Below are positions 49,714 through 59,868 of a stretch of 59,868 bases of DNA, piece after piece. Under the pieces are notes generated by a model. That model was given only the letters and a program-made list of their open reading frames with translations. It was not told the origin of the DNA and ran no database searches. Positions within the stretch are counted from its first letter, which is position 1; every line of letters begins with the position of its first letter. The position numbers were made by a program, and so were the translations under genes. The stretch is from Defluviitaleaceae bacterium (GTDB lineage Bacteria > Bacillota > Clostridia > Lachnospirales > UBA5962), in NCBI GenBank assembly GCA_009787355.1, contig WRGD01000149.1, positions 1-59,868 of the forward strand, read 5' to 3'.

Positions 49714-50241
49714 CTATAATGATTGACCAATTTCAAGTGTTCTTGAAATCATAGCTCTTGTAGTGGATAATGCTGTCATATTTGCCTCATAAGACCTACT
49801 AGCACTCATCATATTTACCATTTCGTAAACTATGTTTACATTTGGCATTTCTACATATCCCTCTTCATTTGCATGTGGATGAGATGGGTCGTATACAAGT
49901 GGTCCCGGTGTTTCATCTTCTCTTATTTGTGCTACTCTTACACCACCTGTATTCTCGTGTGAATTAATTACCTCATTATTTCTTGTTACATGAGATGGTA
50001 TCCTATCCGAACCATTAGTACCTTGTGTTAATCTGTTTATCTCTAGTGCATTATCTAAAAAATTACCAAAATTTTGGCTATCTGGTACAGATTGAAGCAC
50101 TACAGATTTACGCCTATACGGACCACCCTCGGCTGTTCTTGTAGTTGTTGCATTTGCAATATTTTGCGATATTACATCCATACGTAAACGTTGTGCAGTT
50201 AGTCCAGATGCATTTACATTCATAGATGCAAAAAATGACAT
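49714..50241 (-). CDS. flgC: Flagellar basal-body rod protein FlgC
   Basis: FlgC is a proximal rod subunit. The N-terminal rod motif MNVNASGLTAQRLRMDVISQ and NIANATTTRT (about 7-36) and the C-terminal helix VNMMSASRSYEANMTALSTT are typical. A short insert (about 70-95, polar) makes it 175 residues, longer than the usual 140-150. AAAGGAG precedes the ATG. Confidence 0.95.
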   Translation of the reverse strand: MSFFASMNVNASGLTAQRLRMDVISQNIANATTTRTAEGGPYRRKSVVLQSVPDSQNFGNFLDNALEINRLTQGTNGSDRIPSHVTRNNEVINSHENTGGVRVAQIREDETPGPLVYDPSHPHANEEGYVEMPNVNIVYEMVNMMSASRSYEANMTALSTTRAMISRTLEIGQSL

Positions 50242-50285
50242 AATTAAACTCCTTTATATTAAAATTTACTACATAAAATTAAAAC

Positions 50286-50669
50286 CTAAATATTACTATT
50301 AAGAACAACATTTATACGTCTATAGTTATTCATAAGACTCATAGACATAACTTCGTATCTTGCAGAGTTCTGGTACAGAGCAACCATTTCCATTTCTATA
50401 TCTACGTTATTGCCATCATTTCTGTGCATTGTGTTTTCGGCAGATATATGTACAACAGGTGATACATTTTTAAGATTTACCCGTCTATTCTCTTCTCTCG
50501 CACTAGTTAGCTCTGTCTCTAAAATATTTTCAAATTCTACAAGGCTACGTCTAAAACCAACTACATCTACATTTGCTATATTGTGGCTTATTACAGTGTT
50601 ACGCAACTGACTAGCCTTTAGAGATTGCCCTAGTATTTCATTATTCAAAAATATATTATTTAAAACCAT
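50286..50669 (-). CDS. flgB: Flagellar basal-body rod protein FlgB
   Basis: FlgB is the first rod subunit and the first gene of the operon. It carries SLKASQLRNTVISHNIANVD (about 15-34), the rod N-terminal motif, and a C-terminal helix with VALYQNSARYEVMSMSL. Length 127 is normal. AAGAGG precedes the ATG. About 330 nt of upstream DNA with direct repeats and a large palindrome separate it from the next gene. Confidence 0.95.
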   Translation of the reverse strand: MVLNNIFLNNEILGQSLKASQLRNTVISHNIANVDVVGFRRSLVEFENILETELTSAREENRRVNLKNVSPVVHISAENTMHRNDGNNVDIEMEMVALYQNSARYEVMSMSLMNNYRRINVVLNSNI

Positions 50670-50900
50670 ATTAAACCTCTTTAAAAATCAATAACAAATT
50701 TATAAATAAATCGCTTATAAATAATAACAAATTTATAAATAATAATCAATTAAAATTTTTGTTTAGACCAAATTTTTTATAACATAAAAATAAGACGCAT
50801 TAACCATTCTTTTATACAATATATATCGTGATTAAACAAATTATAATAAGTATTTTTTTTATGAAAAAAGGTAAAATTTTAGTGAAAAATAGGAGGGATG
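50670..50900 (-). promoter_or_regulatory. Promoter region of the flagellar operon
   Basis: On the minus strand a perfect TATAAT (50845-50840) has a weak TTTTCA (50867-50862) 16 bp upstream. A CACGATAT element (50830-50823) resembles the sigma-D -10 (GCCGATAT), but TAAA is not at the expected distance. Nearer the gene, a 19-bp sequence beginning ATAACAAATTT occurs twice (50691-50709 and 50724-50742), 33 bp apart, in the leader; it could bind a regulator. Confidence 0.4.
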
Positions 50901-50908
50901 AATGTAAT

Positions 50909-50986
50909 CTTACAACTTTAAAAATTTTAGATATTGTAAGCTATCGATTTAATGATTTACTTATCTAAAATTATCAAAGTTGTAAG
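50909..50986. repeat. Large two-part palindrome upstream of the flagellar operon
   Basis: The outer arms CTTACAACTTT/AAAGTTGTAAG (50909-50919 with 50976-50986) and the inner arms TTTTAGATA/TATCTAAAA (50925-50933 with 50962-50970) pair exactly. A further GTAAG/TTTAC pair lies inside. It lies between the stop of the pilin-like gene and the flgB promoter and probably terminates the former. Confidence 0.7.
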
Positions 50987-51000
50987 TAGTATCAAAGTTA

Positions 51001-51627
51001 TTACAGCAATTCATTTAATTTATAAATCCTTGCTAAAATCGGACTATTAAAATGTATAGAAAAAGTGTTTGTTAAATTATGACATATTGTTATATCAATA
51101 TTTAATATTACATATGCCTTTATAGAACTTGTGTGATTGGTATATTCATGCGTAGCTGTAGATATAATTTCAAACATAGAAGTTGTATTGTTGAAAAACG
51201 TATGTACTGTATATCTATAGTTACCATTTGTAAAATTTTGCATATTTGCAATATTTATATAATTTAAAGAAATATTTTTTATCAAATCTATATAAACTGA
51301 TTCTCTATAATATATTTCGTCTAAAATTTCAAAATAATAATAGTCATAAACAAAATAATTTCCTACATTTAATATTATATTTTCCATATTGTTTTGTATA
51401 TCTTTGTTTATAGAAAATATTGTATAGTCTATCCCCTCCATAGCTATAAAAGAAAGATTTGATATCTGCACATTTATAGCAGCTGTTGTGGCATTGTTTA
51501 TATTCACCCTTATAAGTAATATTGCCATACCAATAAGAGTCATTATTAAAAAAGCTGTGTATATATAAATACTACCTTTATTTGATTTTGTAATTCTTAT
51601 ATCGCAATAATTTTTACTATTATTCAT
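51001..51627 (-). CDS. Pilin-like membrane-anchored protein (PilX-type N-terminus)
   Basis: About 208 residues from the ATG at 51627, which follows AAGGTATCT. A short basic N-terminus (KSNKGSIYIYTAFLIMTLIG) and one TM helix, then a polar extracellular domain rich in Asn, Ile and Tyr, match the layout of PilX/minor-pilin-like proteins ('KGSALIxxLIxLxLLxLLG'). No clear prepilin peptidase Glu5 is visible. The frame is open 28 codons further upstream without a site. It is monocistronic and next to the flagellar operon by position only. Function unknown. Confidence 0.5.
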   Translation of the reverse strand: MNNSKNYCDIRITKSNKGSIYIYTAFLIMTLIGMAILLIRVNINNATTAAINVQISNLSFIAMEGIDYTIFSINKDIQNNMENIILNVGNYFVYDYYYFEILDEIYYRESVYIDLIKNISLNYINIANMQNFTNGNYRYTVHTFFNNTTSMFEIISTATHEYTNHTSSIKAYVILNIDITICHNLTNTFSIHFNSPILARIYKLNELL

Positions 51628-51801
51628 AGATACCTTTTTCCAAACTTGTAAATTATAAATTTTTAGAGATTTGTAAAAAAAATTAAATTCAAAAAAATAT
51701 TTTGTTTTCAATGTACTTATTCAACATAATTATTAAATCATCTTAGTACAATGAAAACAATTAATATTTTTAAAAATTTTAAATAAAACATTAAAAACCT
51801 A

Positions 51802-52416
51802 CTATAAGCTAATATATGGATTATGGAGTTTCTCATATCCTATTGTTGTTGATTTTCCATGTCCACTATACACCAATGTTTCATCTGGCAATTTTGTGAG
51901 TTTTGCTAAACTTTTTATTATATTATTATGGTCGCTTGTCGGTAAATCTGTTCTCCCTATGCTTTCTTTAAAAAGTGTATCACCAGAAAATAACAAATTA
52001 TTTACTTTGTCGTATAAACACATACTACCTGCTGTATGACCTGGTGTGTGTATTACTTCAAACTCCACAAAAGGTAATTTTATAAAATCACCTGTTTTTA
52101 TAAAAATATCTGCTTTTGCAATTATTGGAACTTTGCTAGAAAAAGACATATTTAAATTTGGATTTTCCAGTAAATCTTTTTCAGATACATGGGCATATAC
52201 ACTTACATTTGTAAGAGCTACAACATCTTTTAATGAATATATGTGGTCAAAATGACCATGTGTTAATATTATAGCATGTATTTTAAAGTCTACGATATGT
52301 TTTAGTATTTGTTCTTTAGAAAGTCCTGCATCTATCAAAACGGCATCCATATTGTCGTTATGGTATATATAAGTATTTTGACTATACTCATTGATATTGA
52401 ATGTTACTATTTTCAT
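51802..52416 (-). CDS. MBL-fold hydrolase (glyoxalase II-like)
   Basis: A metallo-beta-lactamase-fold enzyme of 204 residues. The metal motif THGHFDH lies at about 52-58, the third ligand in HTPGHTAGSMCLY, the bridging Asp in LLFSGDTLF, and the last His in VYSGHGKST. This is the short hydroxyacylglutathione-hydrolase-like form common next to relA in Clostridia; its substrate is not known. AGAGG precedes the ATG, 3 nt after relA, so the two are co-transcribed. Confidence 0.88.
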   Translation of the reverse strand: MKIVTFNINEYSQNTYIYHNDNMDAVLIDAGLSKEQILKHIVDFKIHAIILTHGHFDHIYSLKDVVALTNVSVYAHVSEKDLLENPNLNMSFSSKVPIIAKADIFIKTGDFIKLPFVEFEVIHTPGHTAGSMCLYDKVNNLLFSGDTLFKESIGRTDLPTSDHNNIIKSLAKLTKLPDETLVYSGHGKSTTIGYEKLHNPYISL

Positions 52417-52419
52417 TTT

Positions 52420-54723
52420 TTACCTCTTAATATTCTGTACTTCTTTAACATTTAAAATACGGTCGCAAAGTTTATCTAATTGTTCTTTAGATTCCACATC
52501 TAATATACAAATAATATATGCAGTTTGCCCATCTGCTTTTATATTTAAATTCTTTATATTTATCCTGTTTTCTGAAATAATACTACTTATAGTAACTAAG
52601 ACACCAGCTCTATCTTCTGCTTCTATGCTAAGTTCTGCACTATATTTTGCATGGTTATTTTTGCTTGTATTCCAAAAAACGCTTTTTATTAGCCTTGGCT
52701 TTTCATTATCTGGCATTGATATAATGTTTTTACAATCTGTACGATGAACACTAACACCTCTACCACGGGTAATAAAACCTACTATATCGTCTCCAGGTAA
52801 TGGACTACAACATTTAGAAAACCTAACGTCTATATCTCCAAGACCCTCTACTATTACACCTGTATCGTTTGTTTTTTTAGTTTTTGATTTTTGTACATTC
52901 GTTGTATTTATAATAGATGATATATCTAAATTTGCATCTGATATATTTAGGTTGTCCAGTTTTTGTTTTCGCTCTTTATCTTCTCTTCTTTCTTTTTCTG
53001 CTAGTAGACGTTTTATTACTTGTACTTCGCTTATAACTTTACGACCTATAGCTGCCAAAAACAAATCCCAAGCTGTATAATTATATCTGCTTAAAATCAT
53101 TTCTTTTGTAGTTTCATTCAAAAGCTCACTCAAATCTTGTTTTAATCTTTTTGCTTCTATTTCAAGCATTTCACGACCAACAGCCTCATATTCTTCTTTT
53201 GTATTTATTTTAAGAGCTGCTCTTATACGGCTTCTCGCTTGACTTGTTTTTACAAAATTTAACCATTCTTCTTTTGGGCCTGTAGAATTTCTACTTGTTA
53301 AAATTTCTACTCTGTCTCCAATAGAAAGTTTATAATCTATAGGAACAATAACAGAATTAACTTTTGCACCTACAAGTGTATTGCCAACAACAGAGTGTAT
53401 TGCATAAGCAAAGTCTATAGGAGTAGAATCTGCTTTTAGTTCTATTACATCGCCTGTTGGAGTGTAGCAGTATATATTACTTTTATAAACATCTAGTTCA
53501 GTTTTTAACTCTTCTAAATATTCTTCGTCGTTGTATTGATTACTTTTCGATAGCTCTGCTTGTAATTCCAAAATTTGTTTCAGAGAATTACCTATTATAC
53601 TTATTTTTGCATCATCGCTATTTCTATCTACTATAGAGTTTGGTTTTTCTTTGTATTTCCAATGTGCTGCTATACCATATTCGGCTATTTCATGCATATC
53701 GGATGTTCTTATTTGTATTTCGAATGGTTCTCCATTTTTCCCTATTATAGTTGTGTGTAAAGATTTATAACCGTTACTTTTTGGAACGGATATATAATCC
53801 TTAAACCTATCTGGTAATGGATGATAATTTTCATGTATAACACCCAAAATACCGTAACACTGCATATCTGTATCCACTATTATACGTAATGCAAAGAGGT
53901 CATAAATTTGCTCGAGAGACATATTTTTTGTTTTCATTTTTTTATAAATACTAAAAAAATGTTTTGGCCTGCCCTGTATATCAAAATTGCAATTATAAAC
54001 TTGCATGAAACTAGAATTAGATATTTTTAATTTTAATTCCTCTATCATATCATTTATAAGATTTTGACGTTCTGTTTGTTTTGTTTTTATTTTAGAAGCT
54101 AAGTTGTAATAAGACTCGGGTTCTAAATATCTAAGAGAAAGGTCTTCTAGTTCGTTTCTTATTTTAGAAATACCAAGTCTCCTTGCAAGAGGTGCATATA
54201 TGTCTAAAGTTTCTTGTGCTTTTTGCCTTTGTTTTTTTTCTGTCATATAATTTAGAGTACGCATATTGTGTAATCTATCTGCCATTTTTATAACTATTAC
54301 ACGTACATCTTCTGTCATTGCTAAAAACATTTTTCTATAATTTTCTGCTTGCAAATTTGGATTTTTTGTACCATCTTTTTTATATTCTATTTGTAAAAGT
54401 TTTGTAACACCATTTACAAGATTTGCAACAGATTTGCCGAAATGATTTTCTATATATTCATAGGTAAATGTTGTATCTTCTATTGTGTCGTGTAGTAAAC
54501 CCGCTACTATAGATTCTGTATCCATACCAAGTTCTAATAAAATAATAGCAACATGGATAGGATGTATGATATAATTTTCTCCCGATTTTCTAAACTGCTC
54601 TTTGTGAGCATTATGTGCCATGTCTAATGCTTTTTTTATTAAATCTGTATCTGAACTTAAACGACTATTTTGAATTTTTTGTATAAATATTTTGTAAACA
54701 TCTGATACATTTTGAACCTGCAT
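52420..54723 (-). CDS. relA: Bifunctional (p)ppGpp synthetase/hydrolase
   Basis: This Rel enzyme makes and degrades (p)ppGpp in the stringent response. The HD hydrolase domain (about 35-190) has LLHDTIEDT with the metal-binding HD near residue 74. The synthetase domain (about 220-370) has FALRIIVDTDMQCYGILG. TGS (about 400-460) and a C-terminal ACT domain (about 690-765) follow. Length 767 is slightly longer than Bacillus Rel. GAAGGAGGAG precedes the ATG. It is first in a two-gene operon with the MBL hydrolase. Confidence 0.96.
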   Translation of the reverse strand: MQVQNVSDVYKIFIQKIQNSRLSSDTDLIKKALDMAHNAHKEQFRKSGENYIIHPIHVAIILLELGMDTESIVAGLLHDTIEDTTFTYEYIENHFGKSVANLVNGVTKLLQIEYKKDGTKNPNLQAENYRKMFLAMTEDVRVIVIKMADRLHNMRTLNYMTEKKQRQKAQETLDIYAPLARRLGISKIRNELEDLSLRYLEPESYYNLASKIKTKQTERQNLINDMIEELKLKISNSSFMQVYNCNFDIQGRPKHFFSIYKKMKTKNMSLEQIYDLFALRIIVDTDMQCYGILGVIHENYHPLPDRFKDYISVPKSNGYKSLHTTIIGKNGEPFEIQIRTSDMHEIAEYGIAAHWKYKEKPNSIVDRNSDDAKISIIGNSLKQILELQAELSKSNQYNDEEYLEELKTELDVYKSNIYCYTPTGDVIELKADSTPIDFAYAIHSVVGNTLVGAKVNSVIVPIDYKLSIGDRVEILTSRNSTGPKEEWLNFVKTSQARSRIRAALKINTKEEYEAVGREMLEIEAKRLKQDLSELLNETTKEMILSRYNYTAWDLFLAAIGRKVISEVQVIKRLLAEKERREDKERKQKLDNLNISDANLDISSIINTTNVQKSKTKKTNDTGVIVEGLGDIDVRFSKCCSPLPGDDIVGFITRGRGVSVHRTDCKNIISMPDNEKPRLIKSVFWNTSKNNHAKYSAELSIEAEDRAGVLVTISSIISENRINIKNLNIKADGQTAYIICILDVESKEQLDKLCDRILNVKEVQNIKR

Positions 54724-54812
54724 AAAACTCCTCCTTCCTTCAAAAGTTCAATAAAAACTTTAGAAACACAATTTTAAATTTTAAAGTGTAACAACTTGGA
54801 TAATGAGCCACT

Positions 54813-54841
54813 ATTATAATAATTATATTGTATGTAGTCAA
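54813..54841 (-). promoter_or_regulatory. Sigma-A promoter of relA
   Basis: On the minus strand TTGACT (54841-54836) and TATAAT (54818-54813) are 17 bp apart, about 90 bp before the relA start. The rest of 54842-54968 is AT-rich and holds no gene I can see. Confidence 0.75.
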
Positions 54842-54968
54842 CTTTTGACAATATATTTTAGGATTTTTGATTTAAAATATTTTTACGAAAAATAAAATGT
54901 TAATTGTTAAATGTTTTATGATATAGTGATATAGTGATAAATAAAGATAAAAATAAAAAAATTAATCA

Positions 54969-55008
54969 AAAAAAACATCAAATCTTTCAAAAGATTTGAT
55001 GTTTTTTT
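54969..55008. terminator. Strong terminator of the peptide/ABC operon
   Basis: A perfect 18-bp stem (54969-54986 with 54991-55008, core AACATCAAATCTT) with a 4-nt loop and A/T runs on each side. It lies downstream of the right-hand minus-strand operon and insulates relA. Confidence 0.92.
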
Positions 55009-55042
55009 GATTTTACTTATGTTAAATAGACAATTTTTCTTT

Positions 55043-55206
55043 TTATAAAAAATCATCAATTTGAAATGATATATACTCTGCTAATTGGTATACGTCATAA
55101 ACAAAGTTTTTTGGCATATTATCAATAAATTTAATTTTATAAATATTTCAGTAATACTATCCTCTACTAATATTTCTATTGTTGGTTTTTCATAAATATT
55201 GTACAT
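55043..55206 (-). pseudogene. Small ORF with a YxxPxI N-terminus, split by a one-base frameshift
   Basis: An ATG at 55206, six bases after GAGG, begins MYNIYEKPTIEILVEDSITE. This frame stops after 41 codons (55081). Re-reading one base in the AAAA run at 55134-55137 (a -1 shift, equal to one missing A) joins it to a good continuation, KIKFIDNMPKNFVYDVYQLA and so on, ending at 55043 for a total of about 54 residues. The N-terminal Y-x-x-P-x-I is like the recognition motif found in several RiPP leaders. It may be a decayed or slippage-decoded small gene, perhaps a second precursor or an immunity peptide. Uncertain. Confidence 0.45.
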
Positions 55207-55225
55207 ATTTTACCTCTATATGATT

Positions 55226-56830
55226 TTACGGTAGTGTAATTAAATTATTTTGTGGAATAGGTTCTTTATCCTGATGAGATATTCTAATAAAATCTACATC
55301 ATATTTTTCTTTTATTCTGGTAATAATAGAGTTAAGTGTATTCGTATCTAAATTTGCCTCTATCTCATCTAATAAAATTATGTTTGGAGAAGTTACTAAT
55401 GCCCTAGCTATGGCTAATCGTATTTTTTCGCCTGATGAAAGATTATTTCCTCTTTCTTCAACTAAAAAGTATCCATTTTTTTCTATATGTGTTACTATCC
55501 TGTCTAATTTGAGAAGTTTCATTAATTCTAAAAGCTCATTATTAGATATATCAACTCTCTCTAAGGATAAATTACCTAATATACTATCTTCGAAAAACAA
55601 AGGAATTTGTGGTACATACCCTATTTTTCTACTAACAGATTGTTTTGTATATGTTTTAATATCGTATCCATTTATTTTTATAGTACCTTTTTGTGGTTCT
55701 ATAATTTGATTTAATAGTTTAAAAAGAGTGCTTTTACCAGAACCATTTACACCTTTAATCCATATATCATTTGGAAATGTCAATTCAAAAGTTTTGTCTA
55801 TAAGTATAGGCTTATCTGAATTGTAATAAAAATAAACATTATCAAACGAAATATTTTTTACATATTCAAGTTTTTTCAAGCTCTCATTAGATAAATCATC
55901 TATTTCTTTAATTTTCATATTTACATTTTTTATACTAATTATTGTTTTTTGAAAATTTGCAATATAGCCTACAATTGATGAAAATAAAAATATTAATCCA
56001 TCAATCATCTGAAATATAAGTAAAAATACACCGAATGTAATATTCCCATAAGTTAAATTAATTGCCCCTATAATGATGACAGCTATATTAAAGCCACCAT
56101 TAAAGCATATATCACTTACTAGCTTAGAAATATTCTGTGTTCTATTTAATTTATTATCTTTTTTAAAAATATCTTCATTAATTTTTTTTGAATGATTAAT
56201 ATTTTGAGAAATAGTACCAAATATTTTTAATAAAGTGAAATTATTTAAAATTTCAACAATATTTTTAATCCTGCTATCGTCAATATTTCTTCGTTCTTTA
56301 GAATATTTGCTAATTTGTTTCGAGAAAAACATATTAGCAAACAAAAAAAAGATACCCAATAATATTAAAATTATCAATATTGTAATTGACCTTGTACCTA
56401 TTACAACCATCGATACTATACCCGAAATAATAGCTTGAAATAATACAATAGTAGACCATCCTATTAAAGATGAAGCTTCTGCAACATCTGTTTTTAAAAT
56501 ATTTATTTCTTTACTTGAGTGATATTCTGAATCTATCCATTTATTAGAATTAATTATATTTTTAAAAACAAGTGTCCCGAGATTCTTCATAAACTTATAT
56601 TGATTTATCTCCATCATATATCCAAATAAAGGGATTAAATAAATAAAATAAATAATCATTCCAAATAAAATAATAATAAAATGTAGCAAATTTTCACTCT
56701 CATTATCGAAAATGTACATTAAACTTAGTCCGATAAAAAGACTATGAAAAACTGCTTGCATTGAATTAAAAATAATTCCTACAGCACCTTTAACTGTTAT
56801 ATTTTTTAATATAATTTTTGCTATATTCAT
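55226..56830 (-). CDS. ABC transporter, fused permease/ATPase (peptide exporter half B)
   Basis: About 534 residues. Six TM helices (about 15-300) precede an ATPase domain with Walker A GVNGSGKST near 360, Q-loop YVPQIPLFFEDS, signature LSSGEKIRLAIARAL, Walker B IILLDEIEANLD and switch His in ISHQD. All ATPase motifs look functional. I take the ATG at 56830, which overlaps the preceding stop as ATGA. No N-terminal C39 peptidase is present. It should pair with the neighbouring half-transporter as a heterodimer exporting the small peptide. Confidence 0.85.
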   Translation of the reverse strand: MNIAKIILKNITVKGAVGIIFNSMQAVFHSLFIGLSLMYIFDNESENLLHFIIILFGMIIYFIYLIPLFGYMMEINQYKFMKNLGTLVFKNIINSNKWIDSEYHSSKEINILKTDVAEASSLIGWSTIVLFQAIISGIVSMVVIGTRSITILIILILLGIFFLFANMFFSKQISKYSKERRNIDDSRIKNIVEILNNFTLLKIFGTISQNINHSKKINEDIFKKDNKLNRTQNISKLVSDICFNGGFNIAVIIIGAINLTYGNITFGVFLLIFQMIDGLIFLFSSIVGYIANFQKTIISIKNVNMKIKEIDDLSNESLKKLEYVKNISFDNVYFYYNSDKPILIDKTFELTFPNDIWIKGVNGSGKSTLFKLLNQIIEPQKGTIKINGYDIKTYTKQSVSRKIGYVPQIPLFFEDSILGNLSLERVDISNNELLELMKLLKLDRIVTHIEKNGYFLVEERGNNLSSGEKIRLAIARALVTSPNIILLDEIEANLDTNTLNSIITRIKEKYDVDFIRISHQDKEPIPQNNLITLP

Positions 56831-58476
56831 TTTGTCCACTCATTAAAATTTAGTATTACTTCACATGAAGCTGCTGTGTTCATATTATGCGTTACCAAAA
56901 TAACTGATTTGTCTGTATGTCTTATAAAATCACTAAATATTTCTTCACTCTCTACATCTAAATGAGACGTTGGTTCATCTAATATAAGTATTTCAGAATC
57001 TTTATATAAAAGTCTGGATAAACATATTTTTAATTTCTGTCCTTCAGAAAGATTCTTTCCAAATTGACCAACAGTATTATATAAAGTATTTTTATTTACA
57101 ATATCAGACATATTTAATGTTTTAGAAATATCTTCTATTCTTTCTAAGTCTTTTTGCTCAAGTAATTCATCAGAAAAAGTAATATTATAGGCTAAAGTAT
57201 TATCTATTAAATTATAGTTTCCATCAAAATAAGATATTTGTTCCCAATTATTTTTCCTTAAAAGATAAGAGTCTCTACCATAGATATTTATACTACCTTT
57301 TGTAGGTTTGTAAATACCCATTATTAATTTTAAAAATGTAGATTTTCCAATTCCTGATTCCCCAATTATAGCTATTTTTTCACCTTTATTTAATTTGAAA
57401 TCTACATTTTCAAATATAGGAGTTGCATTTTCAAATCCAAAAGACATATTTTTAATATCAACAACTATTTTAGATTCTTTCTCTAAATGATTTTCTCTAT
57501 CTTGTTCATAATCTTCTTTATGCTCAAATTTATTATTAATAATATTTAAAGTGCTAAATATTAATTCTCTTACTCCAAAATAATTTACATATGACTGTAA
57601 CATTTTACCAAAAGGTAAAGATACCATATTAACCAAAAGTAATATTGATGTAAATTCTCCATAATTCAATTCATCATAAAAGATGTATGCAAGACCAATA
57701 AGAACAATAGTAGGTAAGTATTCGTTCATCAGGGCAGGTCTATATGATTTTAATTTTTCTTTAGTAAATTTAAAATACAAATCTTCTCTTTTTTCTAATA
57801 ATTCATTATGCTTACGAACTGCATAATTTTGCGTATTACTTGCACTAATATATTCTCTGTTCTCAAGTATATTCTTTTCAAAAGAAGATATATTTTTTTG
57901 TATAGGTATAATTTCACTTATTATATTAGATATATTATTCTTTCTAAAAATACTTACGATAGATGAAATTATTACAATAATTATAATAATAGCGGCTATT
58001 CTAATATTTAAGTAAATAAGAGCTGTAAACGAAAAAATAAACATTAATGGCATGAAAATTATATTTTGTGTGTCATTTTTTAAAAAATTTCTTATCCTAT
58101 CTGAAACGTCTCTATATTTGCTCAAAAATTCATCTTTATATTTTTCAAAACTATCAATTTCTCTATTTTCTAAATGTGATAATAGATGTTTATGCATTTT
58201 ATTACAAAAATTTTCTACTTGAAAATCAAAAAATTGGTTTCTTAAATATGTAAATATTTGTTGTAAAAATATAAATATAATAAACCAAAAAATTAATGAA
58301 ATCTCAATCCTACCAAATTCACCTACTGCTGAATTGATTAGAGGATAAACTATAAGCACTGTTACAATATTAAAAATAGCCGAAAAAATAATAACAATAA
58401 AAAACTTGATTCTCATAGTTATTATATTTTTAAATATCACTTTTATTGGTTCTGTTACTTTAGCTAATTTATTCAT
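56827..58476 (-). CDS. ABC transporter, fused permease/ATPase (peptide exporter half A)
   Basis: 549 residues with six TM helices (about 20-300) and an ATPase domain: Walker A GESGIGKST near 368, signature LSEGQKLKICLSRLL, Walker B ILILDEPTSHLD and switch His in LVTHN. The Q-loop region reads ISYFDGNYNLID, with no Gln at the usual place. This suggests a degenerate site, as in many heterodimeric exporters. There is no C39 peptidase domain, in line with a separate protease gene 9 nt upstream. It overlaps half B by four bases. Confidence 0.85.
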   Translation of the reverse strand: MNKLAKVTEPIKVIFKNIITMRIKFFIVIIFSAIFNIVTVLIVYPLINSAVGEFGRIEISLIFWFIIFIFLQQIFTYLRNQFFDFQVENFCNKMHKHLLSHLENREIDSFEKYKDEFLSKYRDVSDRIRNFLKNDTQNIIFMPLMFIFSFTALIYLNIRIAAIIIIIVIISSIVSIFRKNNISNIISEIIPIQKNISSFEKNILENREYISASNTQNYAVRKHNELLEKREDLYFKFTKEKLKSYRPALMNEYLPTIVLIGLAYIFYDELNYGEFTSILLLVNMVSLPFGKMLQSYVNYFGVRELIFSTLNIINNKFEHKEDYEQDRENHLEKESKIVVDIKNMSFGFENATPIFENVDFKLNKGEKIAIIGESGIGKSTFLKLIMGIYKPTKGSINIYGRDSYLLRKNNWEQISYFDGNYNLIDNTLAYNITFSDELLEQKDLERIEDISKTLNMSDIVNKNTLYNTVGQFGKNLSEGQKLKICLSRLLYKDSEILILDEPTSHLDVESEEIFSDFIRHTDKSVILVTHNMNTAASCEVILNFNEWTK

Positions 58477-58485
58477 TCTATACGT

Positions 58486-59193
58486 CTACTCTCTCTTATT
58501 AATTTTAAAATTAAATTTATTTAAAATATTATAAATACTTTTTAGCATATATTCTTTTGAACTTATTAACTCTTTTATTTCATCGTAGGAACAAGAGCAG
58601 TTGAGTGCTTCAAATAAAAACAAACTTATAATTGAACAAAAAATACTACTTCCGTTTAACCAAATTCGCCTATTTGAATCCCAATAAACATTTAGATATA
58701 TTTTTCTATTAATTATTATTCCATCTTGGTTAATATCAAGTATCTCTTTTAAATCTTCAACACTTACACTTATAACTGTATCGATTTTAGAAGGAAAGAC
58801 ATTCTGTATTTGTTTATCTCTTGCAGCCACTATATAAATTCCTTTTTCATACATTACTCTACAAAGATACTTCATTTCTAAAATATCTTTATTTTCATAT
58901 TCACTAATAAAACCACAACTAATATTTACAACTCTAGCTATAAGTTTATCGGAGATATATTCCAAAATCAAATTAAATTCTTTTATAGATGTCTTATTAT
59001 TTACAGGAAAGAAAATAATCTCACAATCTTTATTTACCGATAAAAAAGCCTCACAAATTGCATTTCCATGACCACGTTGATTAATCATACTATCAGATTT
59101 TATAGACAAAATATTTATTATTGTAATTCTATCTGAATATAAAGATTTAAAATGTTCACTTATTGGACAATCTATTATACAAATAGTATTCAA
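58486..59193 (-). CDS. Minimal subtilase-like (S8) peptidase, probably cytoplasmic leader peptidase
   Basis: 235 residues, starting at TTG five bases after GGAGGG. S8 landmarks are present in order: Asp8 in CIIDCPI, His42 in RGHGNAI, VVNISCGF near 88-95, and Ser183 in NGSSIFCS. At the position of the oxyanion-hole Asn ('AAGN') it reads AARD, so this residue is changed. There is no signal peptide or propeptide, and it is shorter than the usual 270 or more residue catalytic domain. In the operon it most likely cleaves the small peptide before export, or it has lost activity and only binds it. Confidence 0.7.
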   Translation of the reverse strand: MNTICIIDCPISEHFKSLYSDRITIINILSIKSDSMINQRGHGNAICEAFLSVNKDCEIIFFPVNNKTSIKEFNLILEYISDKLIARVVNISCGFISEYENKDILEMKYLCRVMYEKGIYIVAARDKQIQNVFPSKIDTVISVSVEDLKEILDINQDGIIINRKIYLNVYWDSNRRIWLNGSSIFCSIISLFLFEALNCSCSYDEIKELISSKEYMLKSIYNILNKFNFKINKRE

Positions 59194-59229
59194 ATTACCC
59201 TCCTCTAAATGAATTATTTAAAAAATTAT

Positions 59230-59264
59230 AATATAGAAGTTGTTAGCCGCAATACTTCTATATT
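59230..59264 (-). terminator. Attenuator hairpin between the peptide gene and the peptidase gene
   Basis: AATATAGAAGT and ACTTCTATATT (59230-59240 with 59254-59264) form an 11-bp stem with a 13-nt GC-rich loop. In the direction of transcription it is followed by a run of six U residues. Partial read-through would give much more precursor than processing enzymes. Confidence 0.75.
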
Positions 59265-59494
59265 ATTTATTAAATATCATAAATATTTCTGTAATAAACA
59301 AGTGATTATACATTATATCAATTTACTAAATATATCAAAATATACTTTAGATTTTATAGCATTTCTAATTGTTAAAAGTTTAACAAAAAAATGCACCAAA
59401 AACTTAATATTTTTATATACTAAAATTAAAACTGTTTAATACGAGTAAAATCAAGCTGTAACTACATATTTCAAGTTATAAAGAAAATAAGATA

Positions 59495-59668
59495 CTAAAA
59501 TGGGCTTATTGAATTTCCACTACAGTGGCATTGTCCAAAAAACACTAAGCCATCGTCTTTTTTTAGTTCAATTTCCTTGATACCTAATTTATTCATTGCA
59601 TCTTTTCTTTCATTGCTATTTGTTGTTGTATTAACTATTTCTTTTAATTCATTAACTTTGTCTGACAT
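59495..59668 (-). CDS. Putative RiPP/bacteriocin precursor peptide, 57 residues
   Basis: A short ORF with an excellent GGAGG eight bases before its ATG. It begins MSDKVNELKEIVNTTTNSNE, a charged helical leader-like part, continues through RKDAMNKLGIKEIELKKDDG, and ends LVFFGQCHCSGNSISPF. The only two cysteines form C-H-C in the last eleven residues, next to Ser, Gly and Asn, as in modified core peptides. It lies immediately upstream of the subtilase-like protein and a two-part ABC exporter on the same strand. I do not recognise a named precursor family. Core borders and modification are unknown. Confidence 0.7.
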   Translation of the reverse strand: MSDKVNELKEIVNTTTNSNERKDAMNKLGIKEIELKKDDGLVFFGQCHCSGNSISPF

Positions 59669-59772
59669 AATTTTTTCCTCCGTATAGTAGGTTAGTGGTT
59701 AATTACTTAATATTAAAATACATTTATGCGGCTAACATTTTCTTTTAGTCGTTTAAGTCGTGTTGTGTCGAG

Positions 59773-59868
59773 ACTTGTTATTACGACTTGTTATTACGAC
59801 TTGTTATTACGACTTGTTATTACGACTTGTTATTACGACTTGTTATTACGACTTGTTATTACGACTTG
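59773..59868. repeat. 13-bp tandem repeat array running off the window
   Basis: The unit ACTTGTTATTACG is repeated seven times without change from 59773 to 59863, and an eighth copy begins at 59864 and is cut by the window edge. The period is not a multiple of three. The array lies about 105 bp upstream of the peptide gene start. Total length cannot be known from here. Confidence 0.95.

Follow-up and report, generated by a model that had tools for sequence, protein, structure and literature searches.

The S8 (subtilisin-like) peptidase QhpE cleaves the QhpC leader in the cytoplasm, ahead of export via the ATP-binding cassette (ABC) transporter QhpF, and is reported to act once per molecule (PMC7876137). 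ElxP, a cytoplasmic lanthipeptide protease, recognizes the motif (Asp/Glu)-(Leu/Val)-X2-Gln (PMC10885120). Here we describe a candidate operon of a Defluviitaleaceae bacterium that encodes a 57-residue peptide (P57), an S8 peptidase and two ABC half-transporters (ABC1 and ABC2). The window analysed is an entire contig (C149, WRGD01000149.1; 59868 bases) from a 2.25-Mb Clostridia assembly of 152 contigs. The locus is most likely a real peptide-processing and export operon, and a small variation on a known cut-and-export route. We give a probability of about 0.55 to the reading that it makes and exports one short ribosomal peptide, with the cytoplasmic S8 cutting the P57 leader and the ABC pair exporting the product. 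This is the best reading because relatives of the S8 are mostly found beside radical S-adenosylmethionine (radical-SAM) maturases and ABC exporters.

A cytoplasmic subtilase and a paired ABC exporter

The operon occupies the right end of the contig, on the minus strand, and is listed below in the order of transcription.

59772 to 59868, no strand: 13-bp tandem repeat GACTTGTTATTAC, 7.5 perfect copies (Tandem Repeats Finder), at the assembly break
59495 to 59668, minus strand: P57, candidate precursor peptide (open reading frame, ribosome-binding site and coding-like codon use; no homologue)
59194 to 59494, minus strand: gap of 301 bp between P57 and the S8 gene, which folds somewhat better than shuffled sequences (z -2.2) and has no Rfam family
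58486 to 59193, minus strand: cytoplasmic S8 peptidase, 235 aa (fold matches, alignments and a QhpE match below the cut-off)
56827 to 58476, minus strand: ABC1, fused membrane and ATPase half-transporter, 549 aa, no C39 peptidase domain (Pfam and NCBIfam models)
55226 to 56830, minus strand: ABC2, fused half-transporter, 534 aa from the ATG at 56830 (537 from the GTG at 56839)
55043 to 55206, minus strand: small open reading frame behind AGAGGT, 41 aa (55206 to 55081), with the reading continuing in a different frame as far as 55043
54969 to 55008, minus strand: intrinsic terminator with an 18-pair stem, a loop of 4 and a T tail (hairpin search)

The elements named in the original prediction are thus all present on the minus strand, i.e., the Cys-containing peptide, the S8 protein without a signal peptide, the two overlapping half-transporters, the small frameshifted reading frame and the strong terminator.

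The start codon of the S8 gene is a TTG at 59193, after GAGGAGGG (59205 to 59198), and the product opens directly with core strand 1 (MNTICIID), with no space for a signal peptide or prodomain. No Pfam family matched it, and the NCBIfam QhpE model (NF049966) gave 36.7 bits, far under the cut-off of 165 for QhpE membership; the Brevibacillus QhpE, used as a control, scored 167.4 bits. In the AlphaFold model (pLDDT 70, pTM 0.76, from an alignment of only three sequences) the strands and helices follow the order of subtilisin. Foldseek placed kumamolisin, PatG and subtilisin-like proteases at the top ranks (best E 3e-6), and VIA-align gave Z values of 15-17 over ~195 residues with PCSK9, subtilisins, PatG and the lanthipeptide protease 4zoq. 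Asp8, His42 and Ser183 align in order with the subtilisin triad, and the protein is a predicted subtilisin fold with the conserved triad of the S8 family.

An oxyanion-hole Asn (Asn155 of subtilisin) is usual, though not universal, in S8 peptidases. This column holds Asn in about 58 of the 62 alignable S8s and Lys127 (AARDK) in the window S8; Asp126 had been considered as the residue at this position, and the alignment puts the Asn column at residue 127. The Asn is absent from the QhpEs of Paracoccus, Pseudomonas and Brevibacillus as well. The single-turnover behaviour of QhpE may be connected with the missing Asn, and its lack in both proteins offers a possible structural reason for single-turnover proteolysis, which one substitution could test.

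Both half-transporters match PF00005. PF00664 is matched by ABC2 and missed by ABC1 by 0.1 bit. No C39 domain was found in either; matches to C39-bearing models start at about model position 120 or later. Both proteins begin directly with the membrane part of the models and lack the N-terminal C39 domain that marks peptidase-containing ABC transporters. The ABC2 start overlaps the ABC1 stop as ATGA (56830 to 56827), and the two products likely form a heterodimer since their genes are tandem and overlapping. The membrane part of ABC2 weakly matches the ABC transporter of the S8 cluster in genome G678; otherwise ABC1 and ABC2 are distant from the compared proteins.

Relatives of the subtilase and their neighbourhoods

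A search of 196 related genomes with the S8 gave one weak match besides itself. Class-wide, 19 of 391 genomes (its own included) had matches, mostly weak, and a profile scan gave four loci. Single-sequence scans of genome and viral contigs returned no relatives of S8 or ABC1. Where the surroundings of the relatives were legible, they were mostly peptide-maturation loci with radical-SAM maturases and ABC exporters.

The first layout comprises two radical-SAM genes, a Cys-rich peptide, an S8 and an ABC gene, and was found on the C. difficile plasmid p_TW11, with similar loci in G678, G741 and G679; a P. sordellii plasmid carries such a locus with a third radical-SAM gene. The loci on the two plasmids and in G678 and G741 share with the window the succession of a short Cys peptide, S8 and ABC on one strand, and an S8 identity of 30% over 148 residues. 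They differ in having two or three radical-SAM genes ahead of the peptide, a single ABC gene, and peptides that are non-homologous to P57 and carry the full motif [DE][LVI]xxQ. On the P. sordellii plasmid (L156, 1991-2720), an agr-type pair, i.e., an AgrB-like protein and a cyclic-lactone autoinducer peptide, is located directly upstream of the triple radical-SAM/S8/ABC locus, which suggests quorum control there.

The second layout combines a radical-SAM gene, an acyl-carrier-like protein and an S8, mostly with ABC genes (G629, G331, G291, G583 and G056). In the tree, the window S8 joins this group with moderate support (0.81-0.85), making their S8s its nearest tree group. The cassettes in G629, G331, G291 and G583 resemble the window in combining an S8 with two ABC half-transporters. 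Unlike C149, they hold TIGR04463-like radical-SAM and acyl-carrier-like genes, and most of their S8s are larger (about 600 aa) and retain the oxyanion Asn. A TIGR04463-like radical-SAM protein, an S8 and an acyl-carrier-like protein (82-91 aa) recur together at L086, L088, L089, L091 and L093, in most cases accompanied by ABC genes.

The third layout is the true qhp operon of quinohemoprotein amine dehydrogenase (QHNDH), with QhpE and QhpF, and the comparison with QhpE made in the original prediction proved apt. Both systems have a small (about 220-235 aa) cytoplasmic S8 without the oxyanion Asn adjoining an ABC transporter without C39. They differ in that the window S8 falls far below the QhpE model cut-off, that C149 has no QhpA-D genes, that the candidate substrate is a 57-aa orphan peptide and not a 110-aa enzyme subunit, and that there are two ABC genes in place of one. 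ElxP and other cytoplasmic LanP proteases resemble the window S8 as S8 enzymes of the cytoplasm that cut leaders off behind a Gln (PMC10885120), which for P57 is a prediction; in contrast to those systems, C149 has no lanthionine enzymes, and P57 lacks the acidic residue at -5 and the Leu or Val at -4.

The view that this combination belongs to no recognised class was not borne out, as it corresponds to the QhpE/QhpF arrangement and to a recurrent Clostridia cassette. QhpE/QhpF already provide an example of the route itself, which is met repeatedly in Clostridia alongside radical-SAM maturases. What is new is the orphan precursor, the subtilase without the oxyanion Asn (a lack shared with the QhpEs) and the paired exporter without C39. 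The locus links an orphan peptide to a group of cytoplasmic subtilases in Clostridia that is little described and keeps company with radical-SAM maturases and exporters.

Among the other relatives, that in G385 also lies beside a radical-SAM maturase and ABC genes, and L085, like several of the weaker matches, is an ordinary or secreted subtilase. In one Clostridia family (L148, L149, L151 and L152), an S8 of ~395 aa without a signal peptide shares a conserved gene block with three related proteins (MSNDRFLLIK...) and with genes resembling those of epimerases and dehydrogenases.

The candidate precursor, its cut site and competing readings

P57 runs from an ATG at 59668 to a stop at 59495, behind a strong ribosome-binding site (GGAGG, 59681 to 59677). 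Its codon score of 0.161 is within the range of long reading frames and is reached by 5.8% of non-coding ones, and by these features the frame is probably, though not certainly, coding. Homologues were absent from its own genome and from plasmids, and the 391 class genomes yielded no match better than E 0.02. PHROGs gave one match, to the end of a 323-aa family without known function (E 0.004), which was taken as chance.

All five peptides of the multi-radical-SAM/S8/ABC loci (L034 8727-8906, L090 6680-6844, L092 5544-5699, L146 9385-9555 and L156 5439-5597) carry [DE][LVI]xxQ before the first Cys and within three residues of it (EVNGQ, DIKGQ, DVKGQ, EVLSQ and DLEVQ). When four of these peptides were shuffled singly, the motif with a Cys in reach arose in 0.3 to 2.2% of shuffles; the peptides are partly homologous and thus not independent. 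The motif equals that of ElxP, with Ile replacing Leu/Val once, and by this analogy likely marks the cut site of the cytoplasmic S8, a prediction testable at once.

P57 has VFFGQ before its Cys segment, with Gly-Gln directly preceding the Cys as in the peptides of three relatives. Divided by the Gln motif of the relatives, it would consist of a leader, MSDKVNELKEIVNTTTNSNERKDAMNKLGIKEIELKKDDGLVFFGQ, and a possible core, CHCSGNSISPF. This 11-residue core, with a calculated monoisotopic mass of 1150.45 in linear form, is a tentative product, since the Gly-Gln is present and the acidic residue is absent. We infer the modification, the cut site, the order of steps and the product as follows. The P57 precursor would begin with a leader of about 46 residues, and its Cys-containing tail would probably be modified by a radical-SAM enzyme whose gene would lie past the end of the contig or at another site in the genome. 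The QhpE-like cytoplasmic subtilase would then remove the leader, and the most plausible position of the cut is behind the only Gln, Gln46 (VFFGQ-CHCSGNSISPF). To judge by gene order and relatives, the freed core would be exported by ABC1 and ABC2, neither of which includes a peptidase domain. The predicted fold, the triad and the radical-SAM/ABC company of the relatives support the proposal of a cut by the subtilase inside the cell and export by the ABC pair; its other part, that P57 belongs to the ribosomally synthesized and post-translationally modified peptides (RiPPs), is unproven, as there is no modification enzyme that could be assigned.

Several observations weigh against this reading. 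P57 is an orphan, and different, Cys-rich precursors accompany S8 and ABC in the relatives, which is half of the pattern named in the original prediction as fatal to it. Precursors of RiPPs usually turn over fast, so the missing homologue weakens the claim and does not refute it. The motif of the relatives lacks its acidic residue in P57, no maturase is encoded on C149, and the Lys127 that replaces the oxyanion Asn could leave the enzyme with little or no proteolytic activity. The window S8 forms the longest branch of its tree group and the last reading frame is broken, both compatible with decay.

The best-placed alternative, which we consider unlikely, is that P57 is not enzymatically modified: the subtilase would free a linear or disulfide-bonded Cys-His-Cys peptide, exported by the ABC pair as a pheromone or bacteriocin. 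Domain searches of the whole contig agree with the earlier observation that no lanthionine synthetase, YcaO or radical-SAM gene is present, and no LanC-like domain was found. The operon also has its own start region and terminator. However, nearly all legible S8 relatives accompany radical-SAM enzymes, and the contig breaks off within the 13-bp repeat, 200 bp upstream of P57, so the absence of a maturase (and of qhpA-D, as judged by the lack of a radical-SAM gene) is uninformative. Modification in trans by a RiPP enzyme from another locus is possible, given the many other RiPP loci of the genome (radical-SAM, LanM-like and YcaO). It is doubtful that the operon as it stands, with no maturase nearby, is complete, i.e., that it pairs a new orphan precursor family with an oxyanion-less, perhaps single-turnover subtilase and a two-gene exporter, the peptide being unmodified or modified in trans.

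A decaying RiPP cluster, with the maturase lost, the S8 weakened or inactive and the small reading frame a broken gene, is about as doubtful. The frameshift, Lys127 and the long branch fit decay, but S8, ABC1 and ABC2 are full-length and open with triad and ATPase motifs intact, true QhpEs lack the oxyanion Asn too, and the frameshift may be an assembly error. Least probable is that P57 is a chance or unrelated frame and that S8 and ABC serve another peptide beyond the contig or elsewhere: its lack of homologues, the 301-bp gap and the other precursors of the genome speak for this, whereas its strand, position, strong ribosome-binding site, coding-like codon use and the Gly-Gln ahead of its Cys segment, shared with three relatives, speak against it.

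Contig edge, minor features and other peptide loci

With a G+C content of 23.3%, the operon lies below all other stretches of 4.6 kb in the window, the lowest of which has 26.2%, and this suggests that it is of accessory origin. The terminator hairpin is the only one in the region (0.4 expected), and no Rfam family was found in 50000 to 59868. The small reading frame may be a broken gene, a sequencing error (a real frameshift or decay also being possible) or a short peptide; a remnant of an acyl-carrier-like protein was not supported (profile ~2 bits).

Two consecutive copies of the 13-bp unit occur nowhere else in the assembly, and a single copy occurs once, internal to C151 and not at its end; no neighbouring contig could thus be named to close the contig past the repeat. 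C145 and C102 were rejected as the upstream part of the operon: neither contig end has the repeat, and C145 has its own precursor.

About ten RiPP-like loci (L058-L061 and L110-L115) are distributed over the 2.25-Mb genome, i.e., radical-SAM peptide loci on C56, C92, C102 and C145, LanC-like domains beside their own precursors on C46, C68, C124 and C151, and YcaO on C143, with a match below the cut-off on C38. The LanM-like synthetases accompany short repeated precursors (MYDYQSEVLGLQALE...). On C145 (L061 6886-6993, minus strand), a Clo7bot-like radical-SAM gene and two ABC genes are directly preceded by the gene of a short Cys-rich precursor, MKILIEANTSQDSSVKVSPRCGPCSHLGGCTNISAS.

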